DNA of 30,464 nucleotides, taken from the IMG/VR virus record IMGVR_UViG_3300048836_000912, positions 1-30,464 of that record. The stretch is one strand, 5' to 3'. A program made the translations under genes and the position numbers. Origin of the DNA: a virus. The first letter of the stretch is position 1; every line of letters starts with the position of its first letter. The notes beneath the pieces were generated by a model that had not been told where the DNA came from, searched no databases, and saw only the letters and a list, made by a program, of their open reading frames with translations. Shown here piece by piece: positions 4,123-22,045 of the stretch.

Positions 4123-4315
4123 GCCGGATCTCCCCTGACTGCCGGATGGCCCTGTCGCGCACTGCCTGCCGTTTTGCCTCCCACGCCGCCCTTCCGGCGG
4201 CGCGACCTCTGAGCCATGCAATGCCAAGGGCCGCGAGGATGCCCGCCGACAGCGCCGCCCAGCCCGACAGGCGGGACCAGGCGGCGCCAAGCATCGACAT
4301 GAGCAGCGCCGTCAC
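4058..4315 (-). CDS. Rz-like inner-membrane spanin
   Basis: An 85-aa protein from a GTG at 4315 that overlaps the endolysin stop as GTGA, with GGGGAAG upstream. An ATG at 4300 is the alternative. One transmembrane segment lies at about residues 13-34 (WSRLSGWAALSAGILAALGIAW). A highly charged periplasmic helix follows and ends RRLDRWMRD. Size, topology and overlap with the Rz1-like gene support an inner spanin. It is expected to span the periplasm with its partner in the last step of lysis. Confidence 0.72.
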   Translation of the reverse strand: MTALLMSMLGAAWSRLSGWAALSAGILAALGIAWLRGRAAGRAAWEAKRQAVRDRAIRQSGEIRHDVQNSSDPALDRRLDRWMRD

Positions 4316-5247
4316 GGCGTCTTCCCCGTTCGGTAATCCTCGATGCGGGCGGCCTTCGCCTTCCACGCCAGCAGGATGACGATCAGGAAGATTGCGGTAC
4401 CCGCCCAGGGCAGCACCGGAAGCAGCCAGTCCGAGAGATTGAGCAAGCCGACCGTGCGTTCAGTGACATCCTTCGCACGCTCGGCGGTTTCGACCGCGGG
4501 CGCCACCACCGAGGCCGCGGCACCGGCCATGCCGACAATGCCGGTGGCGATCTGGGCATCGGCGGCTTTCACGATGCGCGAGGCTACCGGCTTGCCCTCC
4601 GCCCGCTCACGCGACACGGCACGGGGCTTTGCCTTCTGCAGCGCCTCCACGAGGACTGGATCCACGTCCGGGCTCAGGCCCAGCCCGTTGTCGGCGCGGA
4701 ACGCCAGCACGGCGGCCCGCGTGCGGGAACCGTAGCGCCCGTCCACGATGCCGACCTCGAAATACCCGAGATCCTTCAGCTGCTGCTGGACGACCTTCAT
4801 CTCCGGACGCTGCGGTACATCTGCGCGCAACGGCCGCCGGATACCGAGCAGGCGTGACCTGGGGTAGCGCGCAACGCTGACACCATCCGACTGATTGCCG
4901 CCCAGCACCTCGATCTGCTGACCCGTTGCCTTGAGGAAGAAGGCGACATGGCCGGTGGCATCGGAAGAGCCGCGCGTGAACACCACGACGTCGCCCTCCT
5001 TCGCCTGCTCGAGGCCTACGACCTTCTCGCCCCAGGTCAGATAGGAGCGCGCATTGAGCTTGCGGGTGGACGGCAAGCCCGCCTTCTCAAGGCAATGCCC
5101 GACGAAGGCGGCGCACCAGGCGACCTCGTCATGTTCCACCCAGTCGTGGCCGACGGTGCGGTACATCTCCATGATCTTCGGATTGTCGGCGGAACCTTTC
5201 AGCTCCTTCGTGCCGAGATAGCTGCGGGCGATGGTCATGTGGGTCAT
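4312..5247 (-). CDS. Endolysin: NlpC/P60-CHAP-like, peptidoglycan-binding, C-terminal membrane anchor
   Basis: A 311-aa protein. Residues 1-140 match the TIGR02594-type peptidase domain, with candidate catalytic Cys45 in AWCAAFVGHC and His100 in TGHVAFFL. Residues 148-205 form a PG_binding_1 domain (VVQQQLKDLGYF, DGRYGSRTRAAVLAF). A strongly hydrophobic segment at about 274-295 is followed by a basic tail, so the enzyme may be membrane-tethered. It should cleave the peptide part of murein. AGGAGG lies 10 bases before the ATG at 5247. It sits between the holin-like and spanin genes. Confidence 0.85.
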   Translation of the reverse strand: MTHMTIARSYLGTKELKGSADNPKIMEMYRTVGHDWVEHDEVAWCAAFVGHCLEKAGLPSTRKLNARSYLTWGEKVVGLEQAKEGDVVVFTRGSSDATGHVAFFLKATGQQIEVLGGNQSDGVSVARYPRSRLLGIRRPLRADVPQRPEMKVVQQQLKDLGYFEVGIVDGRYGSRTRAAVLAFRADNGLGLSPDVDPVLVEALQKAKPRAVSRERAEGKPVASRIVKAADAQIATGIVGMAGAAASVVAPAVETAERAKDVTERTVGLLNLSDWLLPVLPWAGTAIFLIVILLAWKAKAARIEDYRTGKTP

Positions 5248-18773: not shown

Positions 18774-19046
18774 TCAAATGGAGGACCGCTTTGGCTTGCG
18801 GGGCGGCGGTTGCACTTCAGTTCCGTGTTCGCTGGGCGTCGCATCGCTTTGTTCTGGAAGCACAGCCGCAGAGACGGTGGGCTCAGCGACGGCGCTATGA
18901 TCAGGCTCAGTCAACCGGATGAGCGTTCCAAGTCGCAGCTCGTGTTCGGCCTGGCGTTCAGTGAGAGCGAGAACGGTCCCGACCCCGGTGTTGCGATAGG
19001 CCGCTACGAAGGGGCCCGCTTTCTCGGTGATGGCGTAGCGTGGCAT
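18774..19046 (-). CDS. Small protein of unknown function upstream of gpW
   Basis: A 90-aa protein. The N-terminal 50 residues (YAITEKAGPFVAAYRNTGVG, ALTERQAEHELRLGTLIRL) read as a compact beta/alpha domain. The C-terminal 40 are Pro/Ser/Glu-rich and basic at the very end (PPPRKPKRSSI), probably disordered. It is the first minus-strand gene after the plus-strand island and nine bases before the gpW ATG. A virion accessory role is likely from position. The family is unknown. Confidence 0.6.
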   Translation of the reverse strand: MPRYAITEKAGPFVAAYRNTGVGTVLALTERQAEHELRLGTLIRLTEPDHSAVAEPTVSAAVLPEQSDATPSEHGTEVQPPPRKPKRSSI

Positions 19047-19180
19047 GTCAATTTCTCCGGTTGGATCTGAGTGCCGGGCAGCCGGCCGAGGTCAGCGTGG
19101 TAAGCCGGCGCGCGACAATGAGAGGGCGCAGTGCGGAAAGGTCCGCAGCGCATTAGTTCAGCAGGATGGTTTCAGGAGGG

Positions 19181-19201
19181 CGGCTAATCCCGCATTAGCC
19201 G
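19181..19201. repeat. Perfect 8-bp inverted repeat
   Basis: CGGCTAAT (19181-19188) and ATTAGCCG (19194-19201) flank CCCGC. It lies about 135 bases upstream of the minus-strand gene at 19046. It could be a hairpin or an operator. No adjacent T-run makes it a clear terminator in either direction. Confidence 0.5.
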
Positions 19202-19462
19202 GATAGAACACTGTTTTCTGACGGTATTGAAACAGCGACGCCAAACGCCTCCGCCATGATCCGGCGATGCGCTGGATTGTCGGCGGCGAGGCGGACTCAG
19301 TTCGTGCGGCATCAGCCATCGAGACGGGAGGCTTCGAGACAAGGTGGCTCTCGGTGAGAAGAACCTTTCCGCGCTCGCCGGTCACGTTCACAGCGCCGAC
19401 GGATGGGTTTTGGCGGAGCACCAATGCCACTTGTCCGGGTTGGCATTGCAACGGGAGCCAAT

Positions 19463-19489
19463 TTGCGCAAGACTCCGACTTGATAGGAT
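19463..19489 (+). promoter_or_regulatory. Candidate promoter for the exported-protein pair
   Basis: TTGCGC at 19463-19468 and an extended -10 of the form TGATAGGAT at 19481-19489 have a short 15-base spacer. It is about 77 bases upstream of the first exported-protein ATG. This is the best plus-strand candidate, but the match is modest. Confidence 0.3.
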
Positions 19490-19566
19490 GGTCATCCGGT
19501 GGATGTTGACGGATTCCTCCAACGGCTCCGCCCACCCGCTCCAAGCACAGGGGAGATGCGACTGCC

Positions 19567-19992
19567 ATGAAAAGCCGACCGAACTTTTTCACAGCCATGC
19601 CTTCCCTGATTGCCGTCGTGTTCATTTCATTGATGTGTTCCGAGCCGGTCAACGCGAAGCCGAAGAAGATCGATTTCGGCTGTACCATGGAAGAGACCAT
19701 CCGCTGGGCTAACACCAAGGGCGGAAAGGCGTGCATGAGAGCTCTGGATCAAGCGGTAATTGCCGGCTCGAATACCGTGTTCAACATATTCTGCGGCAAC
19801 ACGACCGCCGCCTGCTGTCAGGTCAACACTACAACCGGCGAAGTCTCACGATGCCAAGTGATCTCCGCCACACAGCAGCAGCCAGGCGTCACCGGGCAGG
19901 ACTCCAATGCCGGAGTGGTGGTCGAGCCAGATGGCACCTTGACGCCTGGCCCCCGTGGTCCGCGACCCCAGAAGGGCGGCGCAGCGCCGTAG
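19567..19992 (+). CDS. Exported cysteine-containing protein, unknown function
   Basis: A 141-aa protein on the strand opposite to the tail operon. Residues 1-30 form a signal peptide (basic MKSRPN, hydrophobic SLIAVVFISLM, cleavage after VNA). The mature part has six cysteines, including an adjacent pair (AACCQVN), and ends in a Gly/Pro-rich tail (TLTPGPRGPRPQKGG). A periplasmic or secreted disulfide-bonded protein is expected. SD-like GGGGAG lies 11 bases before the ATG. The next gene follows after eight bases, suggesting a two-gene unit. No family is recognised. The position suggests a moron, a gene expressed in the lysogen. Confidence 0.65.
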   Translation: MKSRPNFFTAMPSLIAVVFISLMCSEPVNAKPKKIDFGCTMEETIRWANTKGGKACMRALDQAVIAGSNTVFNIFCGNTTAACCQVNTTTGEVSRCQVISATQQQPGVTGQDSNAGVVVEPDGTLTPGPRGPRPQKGGAAP

Positions 19993-20000
19993 TCGCCCAG

Positions 20001-20294
20001 ATGCACATCTGCCAAGCTCTCATCAGAACTATCGTAGCGCCTTACGCAACGGTCGCATTCGCATGCGTCATTCTGGCAAGCATCGCCGGCACCTCCTCGG
20101 CCGATTGCGTCCGCGGTCTAGCCCTTTGCGCACTGGAATGCGACCAGCGCACAAAGCCTGAGACGCAGGAGCGGCCACGGTGCGCGCAATCCTGCATCGG
20201 CAGCTACCAGCGCTGCGAGCGGGCCGAGACCATACGCTCAACAACGGGCGGCGGGGCGCTTGACCGAGGCAAGTCGTCGGTGCCGGGGCAATGA
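20001..20294 (+). CDS. Exported twin-CX3C protein, unknown function
   Basis: A 97-aa protein. A signal peptide occupies about residues 1-34 (hydrophobic AFACVILASIAG, cleavage near SSA). The mature part has exactly six cysteines in the mirrored pattern C-x6-C-x3-C-x13-C-x3-C-x6-C. The twin CX3C core is the spacing of disulfide-linked helical hairpins (alpha-hairpinin-like, also seen in small Tim proteins). An exported helical hairpin with three disulfides is inferred. It starts eight bases after the previous exported-protein gene. No homologous family is recognised. Confidence 0.6.
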   Translation: MHICQALIRTIVAPYATVAFACVILASIAGTSSADCVRGLALCALECDQRTKPETQERPRCAQSCIGSYQRCERAETIRSTTGGGALDRGKSSVPGQ

Positions 20295-20575
20295 GTACGC
20301 TGGCCGACCGCATCGGCCTTCCGAGCAAGGTCGGCTCAACGTGAGTTTTAACTTTAGGAGAGACGAAGAGCTTTCTGAAGGACTCCACGCCTGACGTGAG
20401 TTTGCCTTAAAAGTCATCGAGCAGCCGATTGATCACCATGAGCTGGCGAAAGTTGCAGCTGCTGCAGTGGTGCAGCCAAGACGCTCCCAGAGCCGGGCTT
20501 TCGCCAGCACCACTGCCAGGCATTGCCCCTTAGCTCCACCCGTCCCGGACGAGTGAACGTTTGTCTGCTCTCTAG
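20295..20575. other. Non-coding right part of the exported-protein island
   Basis: No convincing gene is seen; only a 17-codon frame overlaps the previous stop (20291-20344). A 7-bp inverted repeat (20303-20309/20329-20335) follows the exported genes, with TTTT about ten bases on, and is a weak terminator candidate. ACGTGAGTTT occurs twice, at 20339 and 20394, 55 bases apart. A longer inverted repeat lies at 20442-20508. Confidence 0.45.
20442..20508. repeat. Perfect 11-bp inverted repeat around a 45-base loop
   Basis: GCTGGCGAAAG (20442-20452) and CTTTCGCCAGC (20498-20508) are perfect complements. The enclosed 45 bases contain further CTGCAG-type self-complementarity. It may be a structured RNA, the terminator region of the exported-protein unit, or a recombination scar. 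No U-run follows. Confidence 0.6.
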
Positions 20576-21154
20576 TCAATTCGCGGGCACGTCGGTCAGC
20601 CCACCGCCGGGCACCACACCGCCGTGGATATGGGTAGAACCGATATTCTTGCCATCGTGCGTGACCTTGCCGCCGGTGATGGCAACGCCGGCATCGCTCA
20701 CTTCAACGTTGACGCCGCCAACCTTGACCGTCACAGCGGCGGACGTGAGTTTCAGGGTGGCGGCGCCAACAACGACCTCACAGAGGCCGTCCTTTAAGGT
20801 TACAGTGACATTGCCGTAGGTGAGGACGTTCTCGTCGCCCTTGGAAGACGGTGACTTGTTCTGGTCGCTCCAGGTCATCGGCAGCGCCACCGCCTGCTGC
20901 CAGTCGCCGTTGGGCGAGAGCGCGGTGAATTGCTGCCCCTTCGAGGGTGGTGTGTGAACCTTCAGGGCACCCGAAATCTGGGCGTAGGGCACCCAGGGCG
21001 ACAGGAAGGGCTTGCCGTCGACATCCTTGCCGAAGTTGAGCCTGACGCGCTGCCTCCCGGCATCGACTTCCTCGACTGTCCCGTGGCGCATGACGCCGGA
21101 GAAACGGCGCTCGAGTTCGGCGATGCGGGCGGCAAGTTCCACCACTTCACGCAT
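20576..21154 (-). CDS. V: Baseplate spike protein gpV (P2-like)
   Basis: A 192-aa protein; P2 gpV is 211 aa. The N-terminal OB-like part (VMRHGTVEEVDAGRQRVRLNFG, SPWVPYAQISGALKVHTPPSKGQQ) fits phage_base_V. The C-terminal half is a repetitive beta helix (NVTVTLKDGLCEVVVGAATLKL, AVTVKVGGVNVEVSDAG) ending in STHIHGGVVPGG. His-rich tips of this kind coordinate metal in phage spikes. It pierces the outer membrane. The ATG at 21154 overlaps the preceding stop by eight bases. It should be followed by W; here the exported-protein island intervenes. Confidence 0.92.
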   Translation of the reverse strand: MREVVELAARIAELERRFSGVMRHGTVEEVDAGRQRVRLNFGKDVDGKPFLSPWVPYAQISGALKVHTPPSKGQQFTALSPNGDWQQAVALPMTWSDQNKSPSSKGDENVLTYGNVTVTLKDGLCEVVVGAATLKLTSAAVTVKVGGVNVEVSDAGVAITGGKVTHDGKNIGSTHIHGGVVPGGGLTDVPAN

Positions 21155-21956
21155 CGGCAATGCGGGCCAGGGCGGTATGGTGGTTGACGATGACCGGGTC
21201 GGGAAGGCTCGAGATCTCAATCTTCTCGAGAGTCTGAGGGTCTTCGGAAAGATCGAGCATCGGACCGAGCCCGATGGCATTCGCAGTTTCGAGGTGGATG
21301 CCCAGCATGTTGGCAGCACGGCGCCAGTCGGCGAGCGGCGTGCCTTCGATTTCCGATCGCAGCATCTGTGCAATCGGCGCCAGATCGGCGTCGCCTTCGA
21401 TGACGCCGAGCAGGTCCGCCCACGCCGTGCCCTCACCGATAGCAGCGCCATCGGTGGGTACCTCGATCAGGTCACAGGTCAGTACGATCTGCCGTGCGGC
21501 AAAGCGCACCCCTTTCTCGACCGACGCGCCGCGCCGCGACTGACGCCGCGAGATTCGCGGCACAAGCTTCATCCAGACGCGCGACCAGTTACTGCGCTCG
21601 CGCGTCAGCGCCGCCATCACCTGATGTTCCATGAGGTCGAGGGCGAGTTCCATTCCCTCGTCGGTGTGCGGGATGGTGATGACGCTCTCGCCGCCGTTAT
21701 CGCCCGGTACCTCCACACGCGCTGCAATCGCTGCCTCGATGACGAGATCGCAGGAGACGTTGCCATGGAACAGATCGCGGCCCGTCACCTCCATCTCATG
21801 GTCGTCGGTTGTGACGATGAGAATTGGTTGCCGCTCCTCGGCGATGGTCTGGTCGATGGGGGCAATGGCACTGTCATAGACGCGCGCTTCCGCCAGTGTT
21901 GCACCACGCAAGCAGCGTGCCGCAGCGATACGCATGGCAAGACGGGCGAGGCTCAT
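21147..21956 (-). CDS. Unknown protein at the head/tail junction
   Basis: A 269-aa protein from the ATG at 21956, with AAGGA upstream; an ATG six codons earlier is possible. The N-terminus RIAAARCLRGATLAEARVYDSAI and RQPILIVTTDDHEME resemble a small tail-terminator fold. The centre has a helical MELALDLMEHQVMAALT segment, and the rest is acidic. It stands where tail-completion genes (P2 R/S) are expected and overlaps gpV by eight bases. A tail terminator or neck role is inferred from position; I do not recognise the family. Confidence 0.6.
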   Translation of the reverse strand: MSLARLAMRIAAARCLRGATLAEARVYDSAIAPIDQTIAEERQPILIVTTDDHEMEVTGRDLFHGNVSCDLVIEAAIAARVEVPGDNGGESVITIPHTDEGMELALDLMEHQVMAALTRERSNWSRVWMKLVPRISRRQSRRGASVEKGVRFAARQIVLTCDLIEVPTDGAAIGEGTAWADLLGVIEGDADLAPIAQMLRSEIEGTPLADWRRAANMLGIHLETANAIGLGPMLDLSEDPQTLEKIEISSLPDPVIVNHHTALARIADA

Positions 21957-22045
21957 GCCGAAAGATCCTTCCATCTGGTATTCTCAAGCCCGAAACCGTT
22001 CCCCAGCGGACCGTTTTGCCGGACGGCAACTTCATGGGGCACAGG

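Follow-up and report, generated by a model that had tools for sequence, protein, structure and literature searches.

A probable moron island coding for two putative exported cysteine-rich proteins occupies a reusable cargo slot in the tail operon of an alphaproteobacterial phage group

The window (the whole stretch of viral DNA analysed, 30,464 bases) contains an island of opposite orientation inside a phage tail operon. Terminase, portal and capsid genes and a P2-type contractile-tail gene order are present, the entire set being encoded on the minus strand, while the well-supported genes of a 1,529-base island lying among the tail genes are all on the plus strand (Table 1). The phage group concerned combines a lambda/HK97-type head with a P2-type tail and is associated with Alphaproteobacteria. 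With high confidence we identify the island as a moron, i.e. as accessory DNA lodged where spike gene V meets the small gene X90, a slot that has received cargo repeatedly in this phage group. That its proteins are expressed in the lysogen and act in the envelope is a prediction which we somewhat favour, and the explanation as a whole, a moron with exported lysogen envelope proteins, is considered likely.

Table 1. Coordinates of the island, its features and the phage genes discussed in the text.
Feature	Position	Strand	Basis
CHAP/peptidoglycan-binding tail-associated protein	4312-5247		similar to tail lysozyme hub
X90, small 90-aa baseplate-type protein	18774..19046	-	PHROG 13870, E 2e-6; conserved among relatives
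Accessory island in the V/X90 junction	19047..20575	.	absent or replaced in relatives; low GC
Decayed IS1380-family (IS1247-like) transposase fragment	19233..19410	+	blastn, tblastn, shuffles
Protein 1 (P0001, 141 aa), exported six-Cys protein	19567..19992	+	signal peptide, six Cys, two relatives
Protein 2 (P0002, 97 aa), exported, predicted helical hairpin	20001..20294	+	ORF features, codon test, model
Pair of perfect inverted repeats (11 bp and 10 bp), interleaved as A-B-A'-B'	20442..20516	.	shuffle test
Gene V, baseplate spike	20576..21451	-	PF04717 and GpV apex motif; PHROG baseplate assembly

A sequence-only reading of the locus had described two plus-strand genes between the tail genes, each coding for a protein with a signal peptide and six cysteines in its mature part, in DNA of lower GC content. 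All of this was confirmed. Both ORFs were found at the expected place and strand, the signal peptides could be called by inspection (hydrophobicity and the AXA rule, not SignalP), and the GC content of the island was 60.5% as compared with 64.5% for the window, ranking fifth lowest among 579 windows of the same size. When the island was shuffled with its dinucleotide composition preserved (n=1000), at least one qualifying ORF (90-160 aa, signal-peptide-like start, at least six mature cysteines) appeared in 20 cases and two in none, the observed number being two. The codon test, trained on the phage structural genes, gave the best score to the own frame of both ORFs. A minus-strand ORF at 19158-19736 was rejected as a real gene, since protein 1 has homologs and a better codon score. 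No promoter-like or terminator-like sites were found around the island in a scan restricted to a sigma-70-like consensus.

The same reading had placed the island at the junction of V and W. It does adjoin V, but the gene on its other side is X90 and W lies beyond; since this 90-aa baseplate-type gene sits between V and W, the junction has to be called V/X90. The conserved part of V starts near residue 97, and since many relatives align only from about this residue onward, the true start of the gene is probably near 21160. As a mechanical ORF, V overlaps the upstream 275-aa ORF by approx. 300 bases (region 20576-21974, minus strand).

The island is not made up of the two protein genes alone; a transposase relic in its first third had been overlooked. 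By blastn, some 150 bases located upstream of the protein 1 gene matched 136 plasmid records (E 0.003-0.01), under annotated transposases. By tblastn the relic corresponds to transposase residues 87-128 (E 6e-8) and then, collinearly and in another frame, to residues 204-212; its score was 41.2 bits, while the best value among the 489 shuffles that gave any match was 28.9. Since the fragment contains stops and a frameshift, it is regarded as a relic. Of an intact IS1380 element, with a full transposase gene and terminal repeats, the frameshifted fragment is the only part seen, and it goes undetected by the Pfam model PF13701. We infer that an insertion sequence brought the cargo into the slot. 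The island could be decaying passenger DNA, carried in by the insertion sequence and having no selected function, and the absence of a recognised promoter and the presence of identical copies in one other contig only would fit with this. It is nevertheless improbable, because both ORFs have remained intact, with matched export signals and cysteine frameworks, next to a decayed transposase, and the shuffles speak against a chance origin of two such ORFs. Toward the V end of the island the interleaved repeat pair (Table 1), which occurred in 0 of 3000 shuffles, could form a pseudoknot or a pair of alternative hairpins; Rfam gave nothing for it and no second copy was found in the viral collection.

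In order to compare the junction among relatives, the J protein was used as a hook, which yielded 80 viral contigs and 42 bacterial/archaeal genome loci, and V, X90, W and J were located in each. In the 57 loci having both anchors, the gap between V and X90 was at most 35 bp in 37, 128-131 bp in 7 and more than 200 bp in 13, the last group including the near-identical contig of the window itself. Among relatives with 88-93% identity in the J protein, the slot was empty in two (L008, L016), and it contained a BrnT/BrnA toxin-antitoxin pair in three (L018, L023, L028), a UPF0149 protein matching a candidate defence model in PADLOC in one (L019) and an exported soluble Cache-domain protein in another (L025). 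In the more distant relatives, which are Bauldia and related prophages, an exported cytochrome-c-like protein (L038, L086-L088) and an exported 227-aa six-Cys protein (L098) were found. These named cargo genes were antisense to the tail operon in every case; the placement is not absolute, since the filled slot of L090 also holds a sense-strand ORF. Each of the 13 filled slots had a lower GC content than J. The present cargo is common to one other contig only, which is 99.985% identical across 6.6 kb.

Presence or absence at the junction had been proposed as a check on the moron interpretation, and constancy of the two genes in relatives as its refutation. The junction proved to be variable and to carry accessory cargo: apart from the one near-identical contig, the slot was either empty or occupied by other genes, and the moron interpretation thus stands. 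The island is absent from close relatives, is encoded on the opposite strand and has the reduced GC content given above, as is typical of morons, and the use of one junction for different cargo in different relatives is that of a prophage diversity hotspot. Its absence in relatives suggests that the island is dispensable for phage growth. This also bears on whether the two genes are inverted structural or assembly genes of the phage, as their position amid baseplate genes and a very weak, unconfirmed match of protein 1 to a PHROG 'head protein' (E 0.03) might indicate. Since they are missing from relatives in which the V-X90-W-J order is otherwise complete, a constant virion component is refuted, and the signal peptides and the opposite strand also speak against a structural role, which is extremely unlikely.

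Two further observations were made on the same loci. An antisense ORF of approx. 140-160 aa adjoining X90 (MSQRSELEERLRKVEALFERAG...), having no family match, recurs in the slots of L090, L098 and L121. The X90/W interval is a second variable junction, with a sense-strand C5 cytosine methyltransferase in L009, L012, L013, L022, L023, L025 and L079 and none in the window.

The position had also been called a classic site for morons, which holds only roughly. The variable sites of P2-like phages are TO, Z/fun and orf30, and orf30 is located between V and S (PMC3091744). P2 does vary next to V, but at orf30, on the S side of V and not on its W side (PMC3091744), while the slot described here is at V/X90. 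P2-like prophages keep defence genes in hotspots, such as the cos-proximal one, with cargo of approx. 1-5 kb (PMC9122126). The slot described here resembles these hotspots in holding short variable cargo (approx. 0.4-2 kb) between conserved genes, swapped in near-identical backbones. It differs from them in belonging to an alphaproteobacterial group with a lambda/HK97-type head and a P2-type tail, and in that several of its unrelated cargoes are exported proteins.

The signal peptide of protein 1 ends in VNA^KPKK, the cysteines of the mature protein are C39, C56, C76, C83, C84 and C96, and the C-terminal tail is rich in P, G and Q. The AlphaFold2 model contains a helix-helix-three-strand domain at residues 41-99 (pLDDT approx. 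79-87) and a disordered tail. Two relatives were found, one in Bauldia litoralis (L125) and one in a further genome that GTDB places in the same Hyphomicrobiales family (L131). Their alignment scores with protein 1 were 69 and 87, while shuffles gave 28 +/- 5 and 0 of 2000 reached these values. The cysteine spacing is 16-19-6-0-11 in protein 1 as compared with 12-19-7-0-12 and 12-19-6-0-9 in the relatives, and AKPK directly after the signal peptide is common to the three proteins. By similarity and cysteine pattern, protein 1 is a member of a chromosomal family of exported six-Cys proteins. Other weak matches, lacking the cysteine pattern, were rejected, and a partial fold match to Tsi1, the immunity protein of Tse1 (34 columns, TM 0.23), was dismissed as a chance match. 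The two relatives differ from protein 1 in being chromosomal and not phage-borne and in having a shorter tail; they occur in a non-prophage setting, adjoining ilvD or among regulators. A host origin is therefore plausible for protein 1, in a lineage in which relatives of this phage are present as well. The Bauldia litoralis relative adjoins two further small exported Cys-containing proteins (L125, 1489-3295).

Protein 2 starts 8 nt past the stop of protein 1. Its signal peptide ends in SSA^DC, and the mature cysteines (C36, C43, C47, C61, C65, C72) are spaced symmetrically, C-x6-C-x3-C-x13-C-x3-C-x6-C. AlphaFold2, run on the single sequence, gave helices at 34-50 and 57-82, with pLDDT mostly 72-83, and in this model the cysteine layout suits three predicted disulfides bridging an antiparallel helical hairpin. 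No relatives were found in any of the collections searched (phage and plasmid records, order-wide and family genome searches). Candidates came from 297 and 28 genomes; the order-wide matches contained stops and were rejected, as were those of the family search, where all of the matches listed were devoid of the cysteine pattern. Since no relative was found in these collections, the status of protein 2 as a gene is based on its ORF features only.

With its twin CX3C motif on a predicted hairpin, protein 2 is reminiscent of the alpha-hairpinin antimicrobial peptides of plants (PMC11591084, PMC7191063). A CX3C-x(n)-CX3C arrangement on two antiparallel helices, which in protein 2 are predicted, is known from alpha-hairpinins, CHCH proteins and small Tim proteins; unlike them, protein 2 has an additional outer cysteine pair and a bacterial export signal, it has no sequence similarity to them, and its disulfides are predicted only. 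Both island proteins being small, exported and Cys-rich, they could be antibacterial peptides or toxins secreted by the lysogen and aimed at competitors. We consider this very unlikely: there is no evident immunity gene and no linked secretion system, the chromosomal relatives of protein 1 are ordinary single genes, and the likeness to hairpinins lies in the cysteine layout alone, with six cysteines as against four.

Neither protein had been assigned to a family in the sequence-only reading, and Pfam, PHROGs, NCBIfam, PADLOC and PDB sequences indeed gave nothing significant for either. Nothing was obtained by tblastn of both proteins against phage and plasmid records, and the fold searches, made with models of moderate confidence, gave no match at E <= 0.001. 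A moron in a prophage hotspot is of a known kind, while the two small protein families appear to be uncatalogued, the slot and both proteins being absent from the libraries and the literature searched.

Members of the phage group were found in bacterial isolate genomes such as that of Bauldia litoralis, and for this reason the group is regarded as temperate-type. Neither an integrase nor a repressor could be identified within the 30 kb of the window, which counts against a moron serving the lysogen. Under the preferred reading, a plus-strand transcript formed in the lysogen independently of the late operon would give both proteins. These would be exported and stapled by disulfides upon oxidation, protein 1 as an alpha/beta domain followed by a disordered tail and protein 2 as a helical hairpin. 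Their site of action would be the periplasm or the surface of the lysogen, where the altered envelope would benefit both lysogen and prophage. In the lytic cycle both genes would be crossed in antisense by the late transcript, and their expression should drop. Lysogenic conversion is proposed because the cargo is encoded against the direction of the late operon, is exported and is swapped among relatives.

The best specific rival is superinfection exclusion, in which one or both proteins would block the tail or the tail enzyme of an incoming phage in the periplasm of the lysogen. T4 Spackle, a small periplasmic disulfide protein which blocks the gp5 tail lysozyme (PMC7677548), provides a precedent, being a small helical exported phage protein with a 97-aa precursor, the same length as that of protein 2. 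Prophage hotspots frequently house exclusion or defence genes (PMC9122126), BrnTA and the PADLOC-matching UPF0149 protein occupy the slots of relatives, and the phage itself encodes a CHAP-bearing tail protein, the kind of target meant (Table 1). However, PDB sequences and fold searches (models of moderate confidence) revealed no similarity of the island proteins to Spackle or to any exclusion protein, and membership in the Spackle family is thus not indicated. Spackle is a flat bundle of helices with a single disulfide, while protein 2 has six cysteines and a predicted hairpin, and Spackle is the product of an early gene of a lytic phage while the island genes are prophage cargo. The relatives of protein 1, moreover, lie amid chromosomal metabolic and regulatory genes and not amid defence genes. 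We therefore hold exclusion to be a tentative alternative, clearly less probable than the general envelope function. More speculatively, and rather unlikely, the V/X90 slot may be a specialised outlet whose unrelated exported cargoes converge on one task, e.g. blocking competing phages at their tail enzymes or receptors, a task that protein 2 would perform as a disulfide-stapled helical hairpin of a new kind.

Morons are the main route by which prophages alter their hosts, and most of them are uncharacterised. A reusable cargo slot has now been located in a widespread alphaproteobacterial phage group, and simply reading the V/X90 junction can therefore provide further candidates for host-modifying or exclusion genes. 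One cargo protein is tied to a host chromosomal family, which shows a source of such cargo, and the two small, predicted disulfide-rich proteins should be easy to express and test.

The slots of nine close relatives (L009, L010, L012, L013, L018, L019, L022, L023, L028) contain an inverted repeat, TCTCCGCA-n5-TGCGGAGAA-like / WTCTCCGCARATNNTGYGGMGAA-like, often flanked by further half-sites, which occurs once per locus and in the slot only. It is absent from the window, and a literature search on it was without result. Its arms and spacer resemble the core site of a tyrosine recombinase, which may be one way to make a hotspot. Repeats of the same type are also present in unrelated phage contigs (L155, L156, L158-L160, L162, L165-L167).
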